Of a DNA stretch of 64,000 nt, positions 26,522 through 36,287 are shown piece by piece. The translations under genes and the position numbers were made by a program. The stretch spans positions 2,356,001-2,420,000 of the forward strand of contig NC_008709.1 in NCBI RefSeq assembly GCF_000015285.1, read 5' to 3'. This DNA comes from Psychromonas ingrahamii 37. GTDB lineage: Bacteria > Pseudomonadota > Gammaproteobacteria > Enterobacterales > Psychromonadaceae. Each line of letters starts with the position of its first letter. The stretch's first letter is position 1. Below the pieces are notes generated by a model. It had not been told where the DNA came from. It saw nothing but the letters and a program-made list of their open reading frames with translations, and did no database searches.

Positions 26522-27625
26522 ATGCACGCTTTAAAAATACAAAATGTTGAAAAAACCTATGGCAAAGTGAATGTACTAAAGGGCATAGATATAGAAATAG
26601 AACCCGGTCAGTTTTTAATTTTAGTTGGGCCTTCGGGCTGTGGTAAATCGACCCTGTTAAATATGATTGCAGGTTTAGAAGAAGTAACTAAGGGTAACAT
26701 TTTCATTGGTGATCGGGATGTCACGCATTTAGATCCAAAAGATCGTGATATTGCGATGGTATTTCAATCCTATGCGCTCTATCCGAATATGACGGTTCGC
26801 CAGAATATTTCCTTTGGTTTGGAAATACGCAAAACAGAAAAATCTGAGCAACAAGTCATTGTTGATAAAGTGTCGAAATTACTGCAAATCGAACCTTTGC
26901 TTGATCGCAAACCAAAGCAGCTATCGGGTGGACAACGCCAGCGTGTTGCCATGGGACGAGCCTTAGCCCGTGACCCTTCGATCTTCTTGTTTGATGAACC
27001 CTTATCAAATCTTGATGCTAAGTTACGTGTTGAGATGCGCAGTGAAATCAAAGAGTTGCATCAACGTGTTGGAACAACCATAGTATATGTGACTCATGAT
27101 CAGATTGAAGCCATGACCTTAGGTGATGTGATCGCGGTAATGAAAGACGGTGAAATACAACAAATGGGATCACCACAGGAAATCTATGACAATCCACGCA
27201 ATCAGTTTGTTGCCGGTTTTATGGGCAGCCCTTCAATGAACTTTATTCCTTGCCAGATTGAAAAAGTGAACGGTGTTATGCAGGTAGGATTGGAAAGTGC
27301 TGGCGCGCAGCATCAAATGATCATTAAACAAACTATCCCGGGGCTGGAGAGTTATGCAGGCAAAAAAGTGGTTCTTGGTATTCGCCCGGAACAAATCACT
27401 CAGCAGGGAGAAGATAAACTTGATAGCGCTATGCTTGATTGCGCCGTTGAAATTATTGAACCGACTGGGCCAGATACGCAGATTACAGCGCGCATCAATG
27501 GAGTAAGAACAATTTGCCGTATTCACCCAACTGCCGAATGTAGGTTAGATAAATTGATGCCGTTGATGCTGGATATGTCAAAAGTGGTATTTTTTGATCC
27601 CGATACGCAGATGCGTATTTACTAA
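26522..27625 (+). CDS. MalK/UgpC-type ABC transporter ATPase
   Basis: 367 residues. Walker A is GPSGCGKST (residues 36-44), the signature is LSGGQRQRVAMG, Walker B is IFLFDEP, and the H-loop is YVTHDQIEAM. The C-terminal part is the OB-fold regulatory domain of MalK-type ATPases (VLGIRPEQI). It powers the sugar importer. Its last bases (CGTATTTACTAAAATAAAA) and the following terminator are duplicated at about 30915-30975. Confidence 0.92.
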   Translation: MHALKIQNVEKTYGKVNVLKGIDIEIEPGQFLILVGPSGCGKSTLLNMIAGLEEVTKGNIFIGDRDVTHLDPKDRDIAMVFQSYALYPNMTVRQNISFGLEIRKTEKSEQQVIVDKVSKLLQIEPLLDRKPKQLSGGQRQRVAMGRALARDPSIFLFDEPLSNLDAKLRVEMRSEIKELHQRVGTTIVYVTHDQIEAMTLGDVIAVMKDGEIQQMGSPQEIYDNPRNQFVAGFMGSPSMNFIPCQIEKVNGVMQVGLESAGAQHQMIIKQTIPGLESYAGKKVVLGIRPEQITQQGEDKLDSAMLDCAVEIIEPTGPDTQITARINGVRTICRIHPTAECRLDKLMPLMLDMSKVVFFDPDTQMRIY

Positions 27626-27632
27626 AATAAAA

Positions 27633-27670
27633 AAGGCCGCTCTAGGTTATATACTCCATAGGGCGGCCTT
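27633..27670 (-). terminator. bidirectional terminator between ABC operon and lipoprotein genes
   Basis: Arms AAGGCCGC (27633-27640) and GCGGCCTT (27663-27670) are perfect, and the inside partly pairs. An A-run on the left gives a U-run for transcripts from the minus strand. A duplicate lies at 30938-30974. Confidence 0.85.
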
Positions 27671-27690
27671 ATGTTATTTTAATTAAACGA

Positions 27691-28998
27691 TTATTTAGAT
27701 AACATTGCCCATTTACCAGCGAGAGTCGATACGAAATTTTTTTCAGTAGAAAATATGATAGGCGTCGTTGCAGAATTCACTTCCATAGCAATAATCATGT
27801 CTTCATTACCAGCACCTTTTCTAAACTCCAGGTAATCAGATGGCCCTGCATCATTTTCTATTGTAAGTGCAAGGGTACCGTTTATTAATGTATAAGTACC
27901 ATTTTGCACCTCTTCATCATAAGCAGCTGTTAATGTCTGATTTGTTGCATGGAGAGTAAGGCTTGCAGTGAAGATCTCAATTGCTTGTGTCCCTGCAGTG
28001 TTAGTATCATTCATGACGTACCAAGTTTTACCTTGTATCTCATCTGCAGTAAAGCCAGTTGTGCTGTTTAAATCTGCCTTAGAGTAAACAAAAAGATCAT
28101 TGTCAGCTGTCACCGACAGTACTAATTCTTTAGAAACATAGATATACTCATCACTAACACCGTCAATCATTACTTTATTATTGTCAATAGTGTAGTTAAA
28201 AGTATCATCGGTTTTATTTGTATCGTTATATGTTGATGTTCCTTTACCGTCAACAAGTGATATTTCCATAATACCTTCTATCGAAGAATAATATTGACTA
28301 AAACTGGTGCCATAGAATGTTTTACCATCTTCGATAAAATCGACAATGTTGGCAATACGAGCGTGATGGCTCGAGTTATCATCATTCAGTTCAACTTCTT
28401 TCAGATCATCATTCTCAGTGAAATTAGTATCAATATAAGAAACCGATTCGCCTGCATAGGCTCTTAAACCAGGCGCATCATCATCATCATTGTCATCATC
28501 TAATTTTTTGGCCAGGCCACGTGCCACTAGATGTGCTTTACCGTCCGTTGACTTGACATAATCACCGCTTACGTCTGCTTCGTCGAGTTGCAGCTCAGCG
28601 GCAAGCGCTGTTAATGTCATCACACTAATATTAGCAAGGGTTGTAAAAGGAGTCACCACGGTAGAATCCACTGTACTGCGCATTTCATAACTTTTTGCAA
28701 CAAATCCTGCGCTATCACTGTCAGTCGTTTTACCTGCAATAATCTTCGCTATCACAGTATAACCTTTATATTTAGCTTCTATTTGTATTTTGCCATTGGC
28801 ATCGGTCTCACCAATAAGTATTTCAGTGCCACCATCGGGTGAAAGAACATAAACTTCAGCAGCACTTAAATAACCATCAATAACGGTATAAGTGGTTGAT
28901 CCTGTGTCAGTTGACCCTGAATCTGTACCATCAGATGAACCTCCACAACCGGTTAGAATGGAAGCAAGTGCAACAGCAAGAAGAGATTTTTTAAGCAT
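27691..28998 (-). CDS. surface or periplasmic lipoprotein, paralogue A
   Basis: 435 residues with lipobox LTGC (Cys19), a short S/T/D/G-rich linker and an N-terminal domain shared by all four paralogues. That domain reads TYTVIDGYLSAAEVYVL, GETDANGKIQI, GYTVIAKIIAGKT, SYEMRSTVD, VVTPFTTLAN, and ends with an Asp-rich segment. The C-terminal 210 residues are a separate beta-rich domain (GKTWYVMND-type) also found in paralogue C. The N-domain resembles Ig-like or carboxypeptidase-regulatory folds in lipoproteins. Function unknown; possibly cell-surface binding. Confidence 0.85.
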   Translation of the reverse strand: MLKKSLLAVALASILTGCGGSSDGTDSGSTDTGSTTYTVIDGYLSAAEVYVLSPDGGTEILIGETDANGKIQIEAKYKGYTVIAKIIAGKTTDSDSAGFVAKSYEMRSTVDSTVVTPFTTLANISVMTLTALAAELQLDEADVSGDYVKSTDGKAHLVARGLAKKLDDDNDDDDAPGLRAYAGESVSYIDTNFTENDDLKEVELNDDNSSHHARIANIVDFIEDGKTFYGTSFSQYYSSIEGIMEISLVDGKGTSTYNDTNKTDDTFNYTIDNNKVMIDGVSDEYIYVSKELVLSVTADNDLFVYSKADLNSTTGFTADEIQGKTWYVMNDTNTAGTQAIEIFTASLTLHATNQTLTAAYDEEVQNGTYTLINGTLALTIENDAGPSDYLEFRKGAGNEDMIIAMEVNSATTPIIFSTEKNFVSTLAGKWAMLSK

Positions 28999-29579
28999 GG
29001 TAATTTCCTATAGTCATTAATCATTAAAAACGCAAATGTGAATGAAAAAAAATTTAATTTTAAATGTAAATAAAAACAAACCAAAAATCAAGATGTTTTA
29101 TGGAGCTGCTTTATTGCTTTTTTATTTATCCGGTTAAGTCAAAAATAAAACAAAAAAGAGTAATAAATAAAATATAAGTATTTTAAAAAATAGAGTAAAT
29201 AAAAGAAATAGTTAAGAAAGAGAGGTAAAAGAGGGAGTGTTAACCAAAGACAATCTGATGATAAGTATTACTTAAATTTTTGGATAAAGATTGATTATTT
29301 TTGCTGAGCGACTTTACCGGGCAAACAAAAAAGTCACCGATCGTTTCCACGTTCAGTGCTTTATATGCCCTCAAAGTATCCGCTGAGATATTGCTTAATC
29401 GAACGGCATTGACCATATGGCGATTCAATTACGTTGAATCTATAATCTTAGCCGTCTATCCGTTCATAAATTGAGAATCCTGTACGCCATAATTTTACCT
29501 ACTGCCAAAAGACCCATTTAAAAAATGATTCATAATGATGATTTTATCATTATGAATTCTGCGCTAATGTTAATTGTAA
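28999..29579. other. intergenic in the lipoprotein cluster
   Basis: Blocks such as GTGTTAACCAAAGACAATC and TTTTTGGATAAA recur upstream of paralogues A, B, C and D, so this is duplicated purF-downstream and promoter sequence. A 62-codon frame at 29240-29428 (MNRHMVNAVRLSN) is unrecognised and I do not call it. Confidence 0.55.
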
Positions 29580-30389
29580 TTAATCATATTCGATATGGTT
29601 ACTATCATCATTCGATTCGCTATGACTACTATCATTATTCAATTCGCTATGGCTACTGTTGTCATTAGATTCGTTATAGCTACTGTCATCATTCAATTCA
29701 TTATGGCTACTGTTATCATTAGATTCGCTATGGTGAGAGACACGAACTCCAGAGGAAAGATTATCGTCTGTATCATAATGCAGTTCAACTGTATCTAAAT
29801 CATCACCATGTTGTTCATGGTTATCCCTGATATAAGTAACCGAATTACCTGCTAAGGTTTTTAAATGGTCAGCATCATCATGATCATTACTGCTATCATC
29901 ATCTAATCGCGCGGCCAGGGTACGCGCCACTAAATGTGCTTTACCGTCCGGTGAATTAACATAATCCCCGCTTACGTCATCTTTCTCGAGTTCGAGCTCA
30001 AGAGCAAGATCTGTTAATGTCATCACATTAATATTAGCAAGCGTTGTAAAAGGGGTCACTACGGTAGAATCTGTTGTGCCGCGCATTTCATAACTTTTTG
30101 TAACAAAGGTTCCAGGGCTATCACTGTCAATCGTTTTGCCTGCAATGATCTTCGCTATCACAGTATAACCCTCATATTCAGTAGGAATCTGTATTTGACC
30201 ATTAGTATTAGTCTCACCGATTAGCGTTTTTGTGCTGCCATCGAGTGAGAGAACATAAACTTCCGCGGCACTTAAATAACCATCAATAACGGTATAAATG
30301 GTTGATCCTGGATCAGTACTATCAGATGAGCCTCCACAACCGGTTAGAATGGTGGCGAGTGCAACGGCAAGAAGAGATTTTTTAATCAT
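29580..30389 (-). CDS. lipoprotein paralogue B, short form with Ser/Asp/His-rich tail
   Basis: About 269 residues from the ATG at 30389 (lipobox LTGC); the frame is open upstream to 30485 but without a lipoprotein signal. It has only the shared N-terminal domain, then a low-complexity tail of about 55 residues built on SHSESNDDSS-like repeats, ending NHIEYD. The C-terminal beta domain of A and C is absent. The same type of tail ends paralogue D. The acidic, His-containing tail could bind metal ions; this is inference. Confidence 0.75.
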   Translation of the reverse strand: MIKKSLLAVALATILTGCGGSSDSTDPGSTIYTVIDGYLSAAEVYVLSLDGSTKTLIGETNTNGQIQIPTEYEGYTVIAKIIAGKTIDSDSPGTFVTKSYEMRGTTDSTVVTPFTTLANINVMTLTDLALELELEKDDVSGDYVNSPDGKAHLVARTLAARLDDDSSNDHDDADHLKTLAGNSVTYIRDNHEQHGDDLDTVELHYDTDDNLSSGVRVSHHSESNDNSSHNELNDDSSYNESNDNSSHSELNNDSSHSESNDDSNHIEYD

Positions 30390-30722
30390 GATATTTTCTC
30401 GAATGGTTAATGAGTTGAAGACTAATATTAGTAAAAACACAGAATTAGTAAATGCTAATATATATGCAGAAGAATCAAAAATCAAGGCATCTTATGAAGC
30501 TGTTTTACTTATCCAGCCAAGTCAAAATAAAAGCAAAAAAACCAAGATAAAAAACAGGAGCCATTTTAAAAATAAAGTAAATAAAAGAAATAGTTAAGAA
30601 AGAGAAGTAAAAGAGGAAGTGTTAACCAGTGACAATCAGAGGATAAATCTTAATGAAATTTTTGGATAAAAGTTGACTATTTTTTGCTAATATGGTTTAC
30701 AAGCTTTACAGTGCAAAAAAAT
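30390..30722. other. intergenic, duplicated leader
   Basis: It repeats the upstream blocks of the other lipoprotein genes (GTGTTAACCAGTGACAATC, TTTTTGGATAAAAGTTGAC). It probably holds the promoter of paralogue B. No gene. Confidence 0.5.
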
Positions 30723-30890
30723 TTAAGATTTGTTATGCACCCCTAAACTTACAATCTCTTCTTTCTGCGGTTGAATTGTCTTAGCATCTTCATTTCGCAA
30801 AATTTTAACATAATAAAAGTAATGCAGATCAATATCACCGGTAACAATATCATCGGTAAAATAGATACCATCAAAGGCAAAAAAGTTATA
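30723..30890 (-). pseudogene. duplicated 3' fragment of purF
   Basis: The frame FDGIYFTDDIVTGDIDLHYF, YYVKILRNEDAK and QKEEIVSLGVHNKS is a diverged copy of the PurF C-terminus ([41 protein letters not shown]). The N-terminal 450 residues are absent. Upstream, at about 30895-30935, the sequence switches to the 3' end of the ABC ATPase gene and its terminator: this is a duplication junction. Confidence 0.85.
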
Positions 30891-30937
30891 AAACTGACCG
30901 GGCAATATATTCAGCAGCATATTTACTAAAATAAAAA

Positions 30938-30974
30938 AAGCCACCCTAGGTTATATACTCCATAGGGCGGCCTT
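30938..30974 (-). terminator. duplicated ABC-operon terminator
   Basis: AGCCACCCTAGGTTATATAC-type sequence repeats 27634-27670 almost exactly, together with the preceding TATTTACTAAAATAAAAAA of the ATPase gene 3' end. It now ends the transcript of lipoprotein paralogue C. Confidence 0.8.
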
Positions 30975-30996
30975 ATGTTAGTTACAACAAAGTGTA

Positions 30997-32367
30997 TTAT
31001 TCAGCAACATCAGTCCATTTATGAACAATACTATCAGCGAATTTTTTATCGGCAGTCAGTAAGGCGGGTTTACCCAAATTATCCATAATAATAATCATGT
31101 CCTCGTTACCTACCATTTTGCTAAACGTAAGCGTCATTCCGTTCCCATCGGTAATTGAAGCTGGTAGATCAATAGAATATTTACCATTCGAGTCCACAGA
31201 GTATGGTGCATCTACCACTGGATCAGTATTTTTATGCGTGTTGATAGTGACTTTTCCTGTAATAGCAGAGAAGGTCAACGCTGCATTCATAATTTTCGGT
31301 TTTTTTGAGGTAGAGTCATCGGCAACATAATGCCAGGTTTGACCGTCTAATTCAGTTGCAGTAAACGCTGTTGTTTGCTGAACTTTTGGATCTGACTTAG
31401 ACCAAACCAAAAGATCATACTCAGAGGTCACAGCTAACGCGAACTTATTAGCCATATAGATAAATTCATCCTCATCACTACCTTGGCCTTGGTTAATGAT
31501 AATTTTATTTTCGTCTATTCTATAATCAGCCGTTCGTGAATTCTGTGGCACTAACCCAGAAACGTATTGATCTAATGTCACTGTGTTATCAGTAAGGGAA
31601 AATGATGCCCTTAAAATACCTTCGTCGTTAAACTGTGCTTGATTAAAGCTAGCAAGATAGCTGGGAGTTTGAATAAAATCGACAACGCCGGCAATACGAT
31701 CGTGATGGCTCCAGTTACCATCATTGCTATTATCATCCAGTTCAACTTCGTCAAGATCATCATTATCAGTAAAATTAGTGTCAATATAAGAAACTGAATC
31801 GTTTGCATAGGTTTTTAAGCCATCAGCATCATCATGATCATTGCTGCTATCATCATCGAATTTTTTGGCCAGGCCGCGCGCCACAAAACGTGCTCTACCG
31901 TCCGGTGTGTTCATATAATCACCGCTTACGTCCGCTTCGTCGAGTTGCAGCTCAGCGGCAAGCGCTGTTAATGTCATCACATTAGTATTAGCAAGGGTTG
32001 TAAAAGGAGTCACAACGTTAGAATCTACTGTGCCGCGCATTTCATAACTTTTTGCAACAGGTATTCCAGGGTTATCAGCGTCAATCGTTTTGCCTGCAAT
32101 GATCTTCGCTATCACCGTATAATCTTGATCTTGAGCCGGGATCGATATTTTACCATTGACACCCGTATCACCAATAAACTTTTCTGTGATGCCATCGGAT
32201 AAAAGAATAGAAACTTCAGCATAGCTTAAATAACCATCAATAACGGTATAAGTAGTTGCTGTTCCATTTGTACCATCGGATGTTCCTATACCAGTTGTTC
32301 CTGTATCAGTACCACAACCGGTTAGAATCGAAGCAAGTGCAACGGCAAGAAGTGATTTTTTAAGCAT
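30997..32367 (-). CDS. lipoprotein paralogue C
   Basis: 456 residues, lipobox LTGC, with the shared N-terminal domain (TYTVIDGYLSYAEVSILL, YTVIAKIIAGKTIDADNPG) and a C-terminal beta domain related to paralogue A (SYLASFNQAQFNDEGI, EFIYMANKFALAV, DGQTWHYVADD). It lacks the low-complexity tail. As the copy of A in the second duplicated unit, it has diverged mostly in the C-terminal domain. Confidence 0.85.
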   Translation of the reverse strand: MLKKSLLAVALASILTGCGTDTGTTGIGTSDGTNGTATTYTVIDGYLSYAEVSILLSDGITEKFIGDTGVNGKISIPAQDQDYTVIAKIIAGKTIDADNPGIPVAKSYEMRGTVDSNVVTPFTTLANTNVMTLTALAAELQLDEADVSGDYMNTPDGRARFVARGLAKKFDDDSSNDHDDADGLKTYANDSVSYIDTNFTDNDDLDEVELDDNSNDGNWSHHDRIAGVVDFIQTPSYLASFNQAQFNDEGILRASFSLTDNTVTLDQYVSGLVPQNSRTADYRIDENKIIINQGQGSDEDEFIYMANKFALAVTSEYDLLVWSKSDPKVQQTTAFTATELDGQTWHYVADDSTSKKPKIMNAALTFSAITGKVTINTHKNTDPVVDAPYSVDSNGKYSIDLPASITDGNGMTLTFSKMVGNEDMIIIMDNLGKPALLTADKKFADSIVHKWTDVAE

Positions 32368-32647
32368 GGTAATTCCCTTTAAGATTAATGATTGAAAATG
32401 CGACTATAAATAAAAAAAAGCTCAACAATTAAATCAATAAATCAACCAAAAATCAAAACTTTACGCGAATATTCTTTATTCTTTTTTCATTTACTGGGTT
32501 AAGTCGAAGATAAAAAATAAATAAAGCACATAAAATAAACAGTTAAGAAACGAAATTAAAATATAAGGTGTTAATCTGAGGATAATTCTTAAGGAAATTA
32601 TAAGAGGGAAAATTGACTTTTTTTTTTGCTGATCGAGTTTACCAGGT
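32368..32647. other. intergenic, duplicated leader
   Basis: Upstream region of paralogue C; it resembles the region below purF (GAGGGAAAATTGAC, TTTTTTGCTG). No gene. Confidence 0.5.
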
Positions 32648-32742
32648 AAAAAAAAACCACAAATAAATTTGTGGTTTTTTTTACAGGATAAAAATTTAAG
32701 ATTCGTTATGCATCTCTAAACTTGCTATCTCTCCTCTGCTAA
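32648..32742 (-). pseudogene. purF tail remnant with duplicated purF terminator
   Basis: On the minus strand the last codons of purF (EIASLEMHNES-stop, about 32694-32729) are preserved almost exactly. They are followed by the hairpin CCACAAATAAATTTGTGG with T-run (32651-32682), a near copy of the purF terminator at 34724-34755. It marks an older duplication between paralogues C and D. Confidence 0.8.
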
Positions 32743-34464
32743 TCAATCATATTCACTATGGTTAGTATCATCATTGGATTCGCTGTGGCTACTATCATCA
32801 TTCGATTCATTATGACTACTGTCATTATTGGATTCGCTATGGTGAGAGACGCGAACTCCAGAGGAAAGCTTATCTTCAGTATCATAATGCAGTTCAACTG
32901 TGTCCAGATCATCTTGATGGTGGTTTTCACTGATATAAGTAACCGAATTACCTGCTAAGGTTTTTAAATGATCAGCATCATCATGATCATTGCTGCTATC
33001 ATCATCTAATCGCGCGGCCAGAGTACGCGCCACTAAATGTGCTTTACCGTCCAGTGAATTGACATAATCCCCGCCTACGTCAGCTTCGTCGAGATCCAGA
33101 TAAAGAGCAAGATCTGTTAATGTCATCACATTAATATTAGCAATAGTTGTAAAAGGGGTCACTACGGTAGAATCTGCTGTGCCGCGCATTTCATAACTTT
33201 TTGTAACAAAGGTTCCAGGGCTATCATTATCAATCGTCTTACCTGCAATGATCTTCGCTATCACAGTATAACCGTTATATTCAACAGGAATCTGTATTTG
33301 ACCACTAGTATTCGTCTCACCAATGAGCGTTTCTGTGCTGCCATCGGGTGAAAGAACATAAACTTCCGCGGCACTTAAATAACCATCAATAACGGTATAA
33401 GTGGTTGATCCTGTCTCAGTTGACCCAGTATAAGTTGACCCTGTATCTGCTGACCCAGTATCAGTTGACTCTGTCTCAGTTGACTCAGTATCTGCTGACC
33501 CAGTATAAGTTGACTCTGTATCTGCTGACCCTGTGTCAGTTGACTCAGTATCTGTTGAACCAGTATAAGTTGACTTTGTATCTGTTGACCCTGTATAAGT
33601 TGAGCTTGTGTCAGTTGACCCTGTATAAGTTGAGCTTGTGTCAGTTGACCCTGTATAAGTTGAGCTTGTGTCAGTTGACCCTGTATCTGTTGACTCAGTA
33701 TCTGTTGACCCAGTATAAGTTGAGCTTGTGTCTGTTGACCCTGTATCTGTTGACTCAGTAGTATCAGTAGATTCGCTATGACTACTGTCATCATTGGATT
33801 CGCTATGACTATCGACACGAACTCCAGATGAAAGATTATCTTCAGTATCATAATACAGTTCAACTGTGTCCAGATCATCACCATGCTGTTCGTGGTTATC
33901 CCTGATATAAGTAACCGAATTGCCTGCTAAGGTTTTTAAATGATCAGCATCATCATGATCATTGCTGCTATCATCATCTAATCGCGCGGCCAGAGTACGC
34001 GCCACTAAATGTGCTTTACCGTCCGGTGACTTGACATAATCTCCACCTACGTCAGCTTCCTCGAGTTCGAGCTCAAGAGCAAGATCTGTTAATGTCATCA
34101 CGTTAATATTAGCAAGCGTTGTAAAAGGGGTCACTACGGTAGAATCTGCTGTGCCGCGCATTTCATAACTTTTTGTAACAGGTATTCCAGGGCTATCATT
34201 GTCAATCGTTTTACCTGCAATAATCTTCGCTATCACAGTATAACCTTCATATTCAGTAGGGATCTGTATTTTACCATTAATATCCGTCTCACCAATGAGC
34301 GTTTTTGTGCTGCCATCGGGTGAAAGAACATAAACTTCGGCGGCACTTAAATAACCATCAATAACGGTATAAGTAGTTGATCCTGTATCAGTACTATCAG
34401 ATGAGCCTCCACAACCGGTTAGAATAGAAGCAAGCGCGACTACCAGAAGAGATTTTTTAAGCAT
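32743..34464 (-). CDS. lipoprotein paralogue D, internally duplicated with repeat linker
   Basis: 573 residues. Lipobox LTGC, first copy of the shared domain (about residues 31-215), a SHSESNDDSSHSES bridge, a linker of pentapeptide repeats STDTG, STDTS, STYTG, STDTE (about residues 231-353), then a complete second copy of the domain (354-560) and an SHSES-type tail. At DNA level the linker is a 15-bp-based minisatellite with three perfect 30-bp units (33585-33674). The two domain copies are almost identical, so the duplication is recent. The number of repeats is likely to vary between strains. Confidence 0.85.
   Translation of the reverse strand: MLKKSLLVVALASILTGCGGSSDSTDTGSTTYTVIDGYLSAAEVYVLSPDGSTKTLIGETDINGKIQIPTEYEGYTVIAKIIAGKTIDNDSPGIPVTKSYEMRGTADSTVVTPFTTLANINVMTLTDLALELELEEADVGGDYVKSPDGKAHLVARTLAARLDDDSSNDHDDADHLKTLAGNSVTYIRDNHEQHGDDLDTVELYYDTEDNLSSGVRVDSHSESNDDSSHSESTDTTESTDTGSTDTSSTYTGSTDTESTDTGSTDTSSTYTGSTDTSSTYTGSTDTSSTYTGSTDTKSTYTGSTDTESTDTGSADTESTYTGSADTESTETESTDTGSADTGSTYTGSTETGSTTYTVIDGYLSAAEVYVLSPDGSTETLIGETNTSGQIQIPVEYNGYTVIAKIIAGKTIDNDSPGTFVTKSYEMRGTADSTVVTPFTTIANINVMTLTDLALYLDLDEADVGGDYVNSLDGKAHLVARTLAARLDDDSSNDHDDADHLKTLAGNSVTYISENHHQDDLDTVELHYDTEDKLSSGVRVSHHSESNNDSSHNESNDDSSHSESNDDTNHSEYD
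33414..33760. repeat. minisatellite in lipoprotein D (15/30-bp units)
   Basis: Units based on TTGACCCTGTATCTG / TTGAGCTTGTGTCAG are repeated about 23 times, in frame (15 bases give five residues). Three consecutive perfect 30-bp copies start at 33585, 33615 and 33645. Being multiples of three, changes in copy number keep the frame. Confidence 0.9.
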
Positions 34465-34723
34465 GATGAATTCCTGTAATGGTTAATAGTTAAAAGTTAA
34501 AAGCACTAATATAAATGAGAGCTTAATAATTTAATCAGTAACTAAAGTGAGAATCAACTAGAAATAAACAGCTTTCTTGAATCTGCTATATTTCTTTTTA
34601 ATTTACCCGGTAACATCAAAAATAGAAGATGAGCCATTAATAAACAGATAATTAAAAATAATAAATTTTGATAAAATTGAGAGGGGAAAATTGACTGACT
34701 TTTTGCTGTTCGGGTTTCTGGGC
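34465..34723. other. leader of lipoprotein D, downstream of purF
   Basis: AT-rich; it probably holds the promoter of paralogue D. A frame at 34554-34736 is not a gene. Confidence 0.4.
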
Positions 34724-34755
34724 AAAAAAACCACAAACAAATTTGTGGTTTTTTA
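34724..34755 (-). terminator. purF terminator
   Basis: Arms AAACCACAAA (34728-34737) and TTTGTGGTTT (34742-34751) with an A-run on the left (U-run for the minus transcript). Directly after the purF stop. Confidence 0.9.
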
Positions 34756-34772
34756 ACAGAATAAAAATAAAT

Positions 34773-36287
34773 TTAAGATTCGTTATACATCTCTAAACTT
34801 GCTATCTCTTCTTTCTGCTCTTGAATTATCTTCGCATCTTCATTGCGTAAACTTTCAACATAATCGAAGTAGTTTTTGTCTATGTCACCTGTCACATAGA
34901 GTCCATCAAAGACTGAACACTCGAAATCATCTGTATTAGGGTTTTGTTTACGAAGCGCATCCTTGAGATCTTCTAAGTCCTGGTAAATAAGCGCGTCAGT
35001 CCCGATACAATCGCTAATCTGCTCTACCGTGCGGTTATAAGCAATCAATTCACTGGCTGTTGGCATATCAATGCCGTAGACATTTGGATGGCAAACCTGT
35101 GGCGCGGCTGAAGCAAAATACACTTTTTTAGCACCGGCATCCCGCACCATTTCGACAATCTGTTCCGAGGTAGTACCACGTACTATCGAGTCATCCACTA
35201 ATAAAACCGCTTTATCTTTAAACTCAGATGTAATTGGATTTAATTTACGGCGCACGGCATTGCGGCGCTGTGTTTGCCCCGGCATAATAAATGTTCTGCC
35301 AATATAACGATTTTTTACAAAACCCTGACGATAAGGCAATCCCATTTCCAAAGATATTTCCTGCGCAATATCATTCGATGTTTCTGGGATAGGTATCACA
35401 ACATCAATCTTTACATCAGCCCATTCTCGTTTTATTTTTGCGCCTAATTTACGGCCCATTTCTAAACGCGCTTCATAAACAGAAATACCGCTTAAGGTGG
35501 AATCGGGACGCGCTAAATAAACATATTCAAAAATACAAGGTGTTAAGCGCGGGTTTTCAGCACATTGTTGGGTAAATAACTGCCGATCTTCGGTGATATA
35601 AACTGCTTCACCAGGTTCAACATCACGGATAACTTCAAAACCAATAGTATCAAGACCCACACTTTCTGAAGCCACAATATATTCTAAATTCCCTTCTTCT
35701 GTCTTACGAGAGCCTAATACTAATGGGCGGATACCATAAGGGTCGCGAAATGCGACCATGCCGTGGCCGATGATCAATGATACAACAGCGTACGCACCTT
35801 TAACGCTTTTATGAAGCTCTCCGACAGCTGTAAACACATCTTCTGGTGATAATTTATCACTTTCAACTTTATCAAGCTCGGCAGCAAAAACATTTAACAG
35901 CACTTCAGAATCAGACGTTGTATTGATATGACGGCGGGACTTAACTAATGAATCTCGTAAATTTTGGGCGTTGGTTAAATTCCCGTTATGTGCGAGGGAA
36001 ATTCCCCAGGGGGAGTTGACATAAAACGGTTGAGCTTCTGCGGCACTGGAACTGCCCGCAGTCGGATAGCGTACATGACCTATACCAATATTACCTTTTA
36101 AACGCTGCATATGCTTAGAATCAAAAACATCTTTCACCATACCATTGGCTTTACGCTGTTTATAATTATCATTTGAAATAGTAACGATGCCGGCAGCATC
36201 CTGCCCACGGTGTTGTAGTACGGTCAATGCATCATAGATACTTTGATTAACGGGAGTTGCTCCAACTATACCAACGATTCCACACAT
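34773..36287 (-). CDS. purF: amidophosphoribosyltransferase
   Basis: 504 residues, the normal length. The N-terminal nucleophile follows the start Met (MCGIVGIVG), the class II glutaminase signature includes [11 protein letters not shown], and the PRPP loop is [14 protein letters not shown]. It makes 5-phosphoribosylamine from PRPP and glutamine, the first step of purine synthesis. It follows cvpA in the conserved cvpA-purF arrangement. Parts of its 3' end are duplicated within the lipoprotein cluster. Confidence 0.97.

Follow-up and report, generated by a model that had tools for sequence, protein, structure and literature searches.

How did four paralogous lipoprotein genes come to lie in a row between an ABC transporter gene and purF in the sea-ice bacterium Psychromonas ingrahamii 37, and what might their products do? 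The window, a 64,000-nucleotide stretch of the genome, carries these genes (A, B, C and D) on the minus strand, between a MalK-like ABC transporter ATPase gene (26522-27625, plus strand; Pfam ABC_tran 1.8e-34, OB_MalK 1.4e-12) and purF (34773-36287, minus strand; Pfam GATase_6 and Pribosyltran). In its passages on cold growth, the 2008 genome paper (PMC2405808) lists P. ingrahamii genes 1960-1964 as a candidate operon, one of three that it calls unknown, and gives no family, duplication history or function for them; we now find long homologues in other species. When genes are counted from anchors in that paper (1954 amylase, 1972 S49 peptidase, 1973 SDR and 1977 fumarate hydratase), with the window genes named by reading their translations, genes 1960-1964 fall between the ATPase gene and purF.

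All four proteins carry an LTGC lipobox, read from the sequence, and are predicted lipoproteins by this lipobox-cysteine signal peptide, from which surface exposure is plausible. In A (27691-28998, 435 aa) and C (30997-32367, 456 aa), the lipobox and an N-domain are followed by a C-terminal beta domain (27694-28326 in A; 31000-31665 in C, from BLASTP, hhalign and a profile search), which the two share with 36% identity. B (29580-30389, 269 aa) has no beta domain, and its N-domain is followed by a hydrophilic tail of 27-bp repeats (29588-29733). For B, a listed TTG start at 30485 was rejected as not being the homologous start, and the ATG was used. D (32743-34464, 573 aa) ends in a similar hydrophilic tail of 27-bp repeats and contains two N-domains, D1 and D2, showing an internal duplication; they are joined by a Thr/Ser repeat linker (33404-33754), in which a 15-bp unit encoding an STDTG-type peptide recurs about 23 times (TRF period 15, 23.4 copies, score 345).

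Searches of Pfam and NCBIfam gave no family above curated cut-off for A-D, a search of solved structures gave no match at E 1, and two structure predictions were poor (pLDDT 36 and 50). DUF5640 scored below threshold in A (19.4 of 28.5 bits) and likewise in a homologue from another genome (G016). The lack of a family and the repeat-rich tails would be expected of functionless, decaying repeats that recombination near purF had multiplied. We regard this as very improbable, as five frames (the four here and one in a sister species) are intact with lipoboxes and dN/dS is low (0.15 for B-D1, 0.38 for B-D2 and 0.39 for the N half of A-C).

The origin of the array can be read from its junctions. One edge of the duplicated segment is formed by the last ATPase codons and the terminator, the other by purF, which gives a single match per genome in 24 genomes of the genus. 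Between B and C lies a decayed copy of the purF 3' end (purF', 30723-30890, minus strand), recognized by alignment with two purF genes. Abutting it, behind C, the ATPase 3' end occurs a second time, together with its terminator (30907-30983), 88% identical over 77 bp to the original gene end and terminator hairpin behind A (27603-27679). In the self-comparison, the purF copy matched purF at 84% (30715-30821 against 34765-34871, E 7e-28). The ATPase-end match extended into genes A and C at their 3' ends (27613-27826 against 30917-31126, 72%, E 5e-24), its ATPase part alone also reaching 93% over 67 bp (E 2.4e-21). With 30600-31100 as query, the whole genome gave five matches at E ≤ 0.001, the query itself included, and all five were inside the locus. 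A second purF tail with stop and terminator separates C from D and is fused directly behind the stop codon of D (32648-32742, minus strand). It is seen in leader alignments and in a self-comparison alignment of C with D that runs into purF (31728-32754 against 33846-34833). The leader of A likewise contains a remnant of purF-following sequence, from the terminator T-run on (29252-29335, minus strand; five-leader alignment), of which 29252-29331 matched 32573-32656 at 74% (E 3e-7) in the self-comparison. The B-A spacer also holds a short dispersed sequence (29324-29391) with three further genome copies, at C1:1281476 (87%), 1155054 (85%) and 2457463 (79%, a partial copy of 43 bp).

The genes pair in the same way: nucleotide identity of the N-domains is 84.3% for A-C and 79.4% for A-B, and B pairs with D (92.7% with D1, 92.1% with D2). 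An unrooted N-domain tree of six sequences separates A and C from B, D1, D2 and the sister species' gene with a support of 100/100. Based on the two junction remnants and the A-C and B-D pairing, a tandem duplication of the segment bounded by the 3' ends of purF and the ATPase gene is supported and would explain the internal junctions. A sequence-only reading of this DNA had proposed just such units, A-B-purF' and C-D-purF, from the two abutting fragments between B and C; it had also noted the four genes in a row, the second purF tail and the beta domain common to A and C, and our analysis bears these observations out. Given the junction matches and N-domain identities, neither of the two outcomes that it had set against a duplication was found: the 30723-30975 region does match the purF and ATPase ends, and A is closer to C than to B. 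As purF' sides alternately with either purF gene where those differ, it is useless for dating the duplication.

A and C hardly look like a simple pair of recent origin, as their N halves are far more alike at silent sites (pS 0.28) than their C halves (0.58), a difference reached by 0 of 2,000 permutations. In a control pair from two other genomes (G003-G016), pS was 0.54 for the N half and 0.52 for the C half. Among 13 pairs, of which those besides A-C and the control are near saturation, only A-C had non-overlapping N and C intervals. For A-C, three partitions reject a single synonymous clock for both halves (p 1.6e-5 to 3e-12); the control pair does not (p 0.42). A conservative count of silent differences in codons with unchanged amino acid gave 29/147 for the N half and 25/79 for the C half (p 0.051). 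We did not take a plain NG86 reading of A-C (dS 0.34 versus 1.1) at face value; permutation, codon count and codon models together are mixed. Most of these sequence tests point to recombination within A and C, with one borderline, and recombination has likely remade both genes since the duplication.

The divergent block between A and C spans ∼640 bp, with less diverged sequence on both sides. Such a layout would also arise if the C-terminal half of A or C had been brought in from another strain while the N half and terminator were kept, without any need for homogenization of the N halves. This exchange is possible but doubtful: no donor was found, the C-domains of A and C are mutually closest among the six long proteins compared, and a stretch over which B and C agree (P 0.0005) favours conversion in the N half. 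The earlier suggestion that the family looks adaptive found no support, as omega fitted per segment is below 1, and for the C half approaches 1.0 only when both halves must follow one clock. Other bacterial lipoprotein families that arose by tandem duplication and undergo gene conversion form arrays, with copies of unequal length and recombination between copies. The P. ingrahamii array resembles them in its organization, unequal copy lengths and signs of recombination; it differs from them in that its segment takes in the end of the gene on either side, and these ends mark the junctions.

A comparison with a relative informs the order of events in part. The sister species Psychromonas sp. MB-3u-54 (G012), the sole relative from the one scan of genome contigs, has a single, B/D-type gene at this site, likewise flanked by the ATPase gene and purF, with the same start as B (MIKK) and a similar leader and 3' flank. 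This gene, B and D have a common shortened end and SHSES tail, and A and C have the full-length form seen in distant homologues. From the common shortened end we infer that the sister lost an A-type gene; together with the full-length form of A and C, it would mean that both types predate the species split or that the beta domain was regained. Rooted trees with the doubling before or after the split fit equally well (AU p 0.56 each), and the unrooted tree was therefore dropped as proof of a doubling older than the split. A plain tandem duplication in P. ingrahamii only, from a one-gene ancestor and with fast-evolving C-terminal halves in A and C, would agree with the sister's one gene and with the tree that places it outside all four (AU 0.559). 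It would also fit the silent differences to the sister gene, which are similar for every copy (0.14-0.19), and the terminator copies behind A and C, which share 93% of 67 bp and differ from the hairpin in the sister. We nevertheless consider it rather unlikely, in view of the shortened end and SHSES tail common to the sister gene, B and D, the likeness of A and C to distant full-length homologues, and the rejection of one clock for the A-C halves, even though the conservative count is borderline. Of the earlier claim that the family is expanding, local multiplication by duplication stands and growth in this lineage is less certain, as the sister's one-gene state may be ancestral or reduced. 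In the order that we favour over a P. ingrahamii-only event, one full-length gene would have doubled, yielding the long type of A and C and the shortened type of B and D, and a second doubling would have given four genes, the sister retaining only the B/D-type gene.

Hints to function come from other Psychromonas. Long homologues of A occur in four other genomes of the genus, and in three Psychromonas (G003, G016 and G013) a full-length homologue lies directly behind genes for a Ser/Thr kinase and an ECF sigma factor. The C-termini of kinase and lipoprotein matched each other in pairwise hhalign (99.7%, E 2.9e-26) and, within G016, in BLASTP (E 8e-24), and a whole-genome search with a lipoprotein profile (A2) found all three kinases (G016 1.8e-33, G003 7.2e-30 and G013 1.0e-14). 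The beta domain of C matched the G016 kinase (BLASTP E 6e-14 in a set of five sequences), and the A and C beta domains together matched a kinase-ectodomain profile (pairwise hhalign E 6e-11). Run over 345 genomes at E 1e-5, this profile gave nine matches (three kinases, five lipoproteins and one secreted protein), finding C at E 6.8e-17 and not reaching A. Sequence comparison shows the beta domain of A and C to be homologous to the kinase C-terminal part, directly for C and mainly through C for A; that part of the kinase is presumably extracytoplasmic.

The kinase-ECF-lipoprotein neighbourhood was present in four of the nine other genomes with a long homologue that were examined (the three above and G117), and absent at the homologues of G017, G227, G263, G049 and G183, the neighbours in the last four being judged by eye. 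The G117 kinase showed no match to the shared domain. In G017, a kinase-ECF pair lies apart from the lipoprotein gene, and its ECF is only 30% identical to the G016 one. The sequences upstream of the G003 and G016 homologues have TGTGGTTTTT and CGTACCTATTATTAAGT in common. Beside A-D there is no kinase or ECF gene. With the G016 ECF as query, no match was found at E 1e-15 in P. ingrahamii or its sister; PF07638 gave one match in each (30.5 and 29 bits, respectively; cut-off 21.1). In P. ingrahamii, the nearest kinase match to it lies ∼32 kb away, and in the sister its contig has no kinase match. A kinase and ECF pair was not found in the P. ingrahamii genome.

This arrangement recalls the ECF43 sigma factor/Hanks-type kinase systems, EcfP-PknT of Vibrio parahaemolyticus and EcfK-PknS of Xanthomonas citri (PMC8999054, PMC13147305). 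As in these, the kinase of the other Psychromonas adjoins an ECF with Thr in place of an acidic motif, here with a lipoprotein following the pair; the likeness is one of gene order and Thr motif. Ordinary ECFs have an acidic DAED motif (as described in PMC8999054), at whose position, placed by eye, the ECFs of G003, G016, G013 and G117 have Thr. Unlike ECF43 systems, the P. ingrahamii window holds the lipoproteins only. Passages on ECF43 in both accounts do not mention a lipoprotein sharing the kinase outer domain, and our literature search found no description of a kinase-ECF-lipoprotein circuit, the lipoprotein mentions seen in PMC8999054 concerning another ECF. What is new, at the level of sequence, is the lipoprotein homologue behind kinase and ECF in three Psychromonas and the homology of its beta domain to the kinase C-terminal part.

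Overall, we find it moderately probable that a tandem duplication, recombination in A and C, and descent of the lipoproteins as freed relatives of a kinase/ECF circuit together account for the locus. Probably, A-D once belonged to a circuit that senses the envelope, and multiplied after being orphaned from it. In the Psychromonas that carry it, the kinase would sense an envelope ligand or stress through its C-terminal domain and then activate the ECF sigma factor by phosphorylation, and the lipoprotein would display the same domain at the envelope, as a co-sensor or as a decoy that binds the ligand. The relocated genes of P. ingrahamii would have stayed on and encode envelope proteins that stand alone: A and C would retain the binding domain, and B and D would be anchors whose acidic tails contain Ser, Thr and His. 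A bolder and less probable reading is a three-part circuit, made up of a Hanks-type kinase, its ECF sigma factor and a lipoprotein of the outer membrane bearing a copy of the kinase outer domain, as co-sensor or decoy; P. ingrahamii would have lost its regulators, and the lipoprotein would have been freed, multiplied and diversified. The locus is a clear case of tandem duplication in which the ends of the two flanking genes mark the junctions. Because the lipoprotein domain is soluble and homologous to the sensor, it would be purifiable and could be used to search for ligands of ECF-linked kinases, and the unknown cold-growth candidates of P. ingrahamii gain a family and a testable role.

Self-comparison of the window supported the tandem duplication proposed in the sequence-only reading, which had placed four lipoprotein genes in a row (A–D, minus strand) between an ABC ATPase gene (26522-27625, plus strand) and purF (34773-36287, minus strand), with a fragment of the purF 3′ end directly next to a duplicate of the ATPase gene end; all of these elements are present. 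The decayed purF 3′ end between B and C (purF′, 30723-30890) was recovered as a match of 30715-30821 to 34765-34871 (84%, E 7e-28), and the ATPase end with its terminator as a match between sequences starting at 27613 and 30917 (E 5e-24), which agreed at 93% over 67 bp in a whole-genome search. When the genome, a single contig of 4,559,598 bp, was searched with the junction sequence, all five matches at E ≤ 0.001 fell inside the A–D locus. A second purF tail and terminator is fused immediately 3′ of the D stop codon, and the leader of A aligns to purF-downstream sequence starting at the terminator T-run, so that such sequence stands in front of all four genes. D carries two N-domains (D1 and D2) linked by ∼23 copies of a 15-bp repeat, and the hydrophilic tails of B and D are made of 27-bp repeats. 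The terminator hairpin, kept by purF, by the copy behind D and by purF of the sister Psychromonas sp. MB-3u-54, is gone from the copy behind purF′ (30640-30725). The B–A spacer (29324-29391) holds a sequence of ∼68 bp that has three further genomic copies (79–87% identity, one of them 43 bp long) and may be a small dispersed repeat.

Among 24 genomes of the genus, including P. ingrahamii, purF was found in all, five have an ATPase homologue at E 1e-120, and a lipoprotein gene between the two was seen only in P. ingrahamii and MB-3u-54. The single MB-3u-54 gene (230 aa) starts as B does, and its leader, tail and 3′ flank are also similar to those of B. Tblastn of the ∼1.5 kb downstream of purF (shorter in G018, 225 bases, and G013, 81 bases) detected no lipoprotein in the other 22 genomes; in 14 of them the ORF there resembles asparaginyl-tRNA synthetase by eye. 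The unrooted N-domain tree separated A and C from the sister gene, B, D1 and D2 with support of 100/100, in agreement with the expected pairing of A with C and B with D. When the tree was rooted on four distant homologues, a doubling that preceded the species split and one that followed it fitted equally well (AU 0.559 each; third arrangement, AU 0.165). The domain architecture favours a first doubling before the split, as A and C match the distant homologues in being full length, and a shortened end and SHSES tail are common to the sister gene and B/D. Against this order, the A and C terminators resemble each other, unlike that of the sister. The silent-site difference was lowest for D1–D2 among 15 pairs (0.079), making the internal duplication of D the youngest event seen.

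Identity between A and C is 82% for the N halves and 56% for the C halves, with pS of 0.28 and 0.58, a difference reached in 0 of 2,000 permutations; the control pair G003–G016, from two other genus members, gave 0.54 versus 0.52 for the same halves. In codon models, a single synonymous clock for both halves was rejected for A–C in three partitions (p 1.6e-5, 2.4e-10 and 3e-12) and not for the control pair (p 0.42); separate fits were saturated in the A–C C half. The leaders are again mosaic, A and B being 89% alike where A and C are 71%. The A/C genes were thus probably remade by recombination, either through gene conversion in the N half or through exchange of a C half, both of which fit the data. 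Counter to recombination, silent differences in amino acid-unchanged codons only were 29/147 (N) versus 25/79 (C; p 0.051). Run tests on 15 pairs gave P below 0.0033 for B–sister (0.0004), B–C (0.0005) and sister–D2 (0.0016); as the runs involving the sister lie within the stretch separating B/D and the sister from A/C, only B–C supports exchange across groups. Omega was below 1 in each segment, and ∼1.0 in the A–C C half when a single clock was forced. The duplication model is supported, and the growing, adaptive family proposed earlier only partly so: positive selection is unsupported by the omega fits per segment, and the timing relative to the species split fits both ways.

A full-length lipoprotein profile (A2) matched in 39 of 345 genomes of the order at E 1e-12. 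Most listed matches span only its first part, often in ORFs of at least 600 aa, so the N-domain commonly forms the front of predicted lipoproteins. Fewer genomes have the C-terminal beta domain: a profile of the C-terminal part of a Ser/Thr kinase from other Psychromonas had matches at E 1e-5 in 6 of the 345. The A/C beta domain also forms the end of a predicted secreted FG-GAP repeat protein of G173 (L104:543-2591). By the Lol sorting rule, the Gly (instead of Asp) after the lipobox Cys in the window lipoproteins favours an outer-membrane location for A–D.

By sequence comparison, the kinase C-terminal part, which lies beyond a hydrophobic stretch and by eye is taken to be extracytoplasmic, is homologous to this beta domain. 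The A2 whole-genome search recovered it at E 1.8e-33, 7.2e-30 and 1.0e-14, pairwise hhalign of the two C-termini gave E 2.9e-26 (6e-11 with only A and C on the lipoprotein side), BLASTP within G016 gave E 8e-24 (set of five sequences, composition correction off), and the kinase-ectodomain profile retrieved C of the window from the 345 genomes at E 6.8e-17. Genes for a Ser/Thr kinase (Pkinase E 1e-34 to 3e-41) and an ECF sigma factor immediately precede the long homologue in G003, G016 and G013. The G016 ECF, the one of this trio scanned for domains, matched Sigma70_ECF over cut-off (E 2e-16) and Sig-70_X6 below cut-off (E 1e-28); it shares 92% identity with the G003 ECF and 65% with the G013 ECF. 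In G003, an IS1595-type transposase gene splits the kinase gene next to the homologous lipoprotein (L060:2576-5948). Kinase, ECF (Sigma70_ECF 1.8e-30) and lipoprotein are also neighbours in G117, from another family, together with a 262-aa protein between kinase and ECF (L099:9209-9997) that has a likely signal peptide and no Pfam match; the G117 kinase did not match the shared beta domain. No kinase–ECF pair was seen next to the lipoproteins of G017 (two neighbours scanned; its pair lies elsewhere) or of G227, G263, G049 and G183 (by eye).

At E 1e-15, the G016 ECF found matches in 6 of the 24 genus genomes, close in G003, G013 and itself and at 28–30% identity in G004, G007 and G017, and none in P. 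ingrahamii or MB-3u-54. These two have one PF07638 match each; in P. ingrahamii the closest of four kinase matches is ∼32 kb away from it, and the MB-3u-54 contig that carries it has no kinase match.

The P. ingrahamii genome paper (PMC2405808) numbers an alpha amylase 1954, an S49 peptidase 1972, an SDR 1973 and fumarate hydratase 1977. Translations read by eye place these in the same order in the window, with matching gene counts between them. By our own count from both sides, the ATPase would be gene 1959 and purF gene 1965, leaving five numbers, 1960–1964, for the four lipoprotein genes and a fifth; that paper flags 1960–1964 as one of three unknown operons that are candidates for a role in growth in the cold.

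In ECF43 systems, as described in two papers (PMC8999054, PMC13147305), a kinase activates the sigma factor by phosphorylating a Thr that replaces its acidic motif. The Psychromonas and G117 ECFs resemble these in carrying Thr where the motif stands in an ordinary sigma factor (SATD or TATD, and NTTA, respectively; placed by eye). Given the domain shared with the outer part of the kinase, a lipoprotein of this family would bind either the kinase or the ligand that the kinase binds. The regulators may have been lost in the P. ingrahamii/MB-3u-54 line, with the gene kept at a new site and then duplicated. The lipoproteins would be linked to kinase/ECF sensing.
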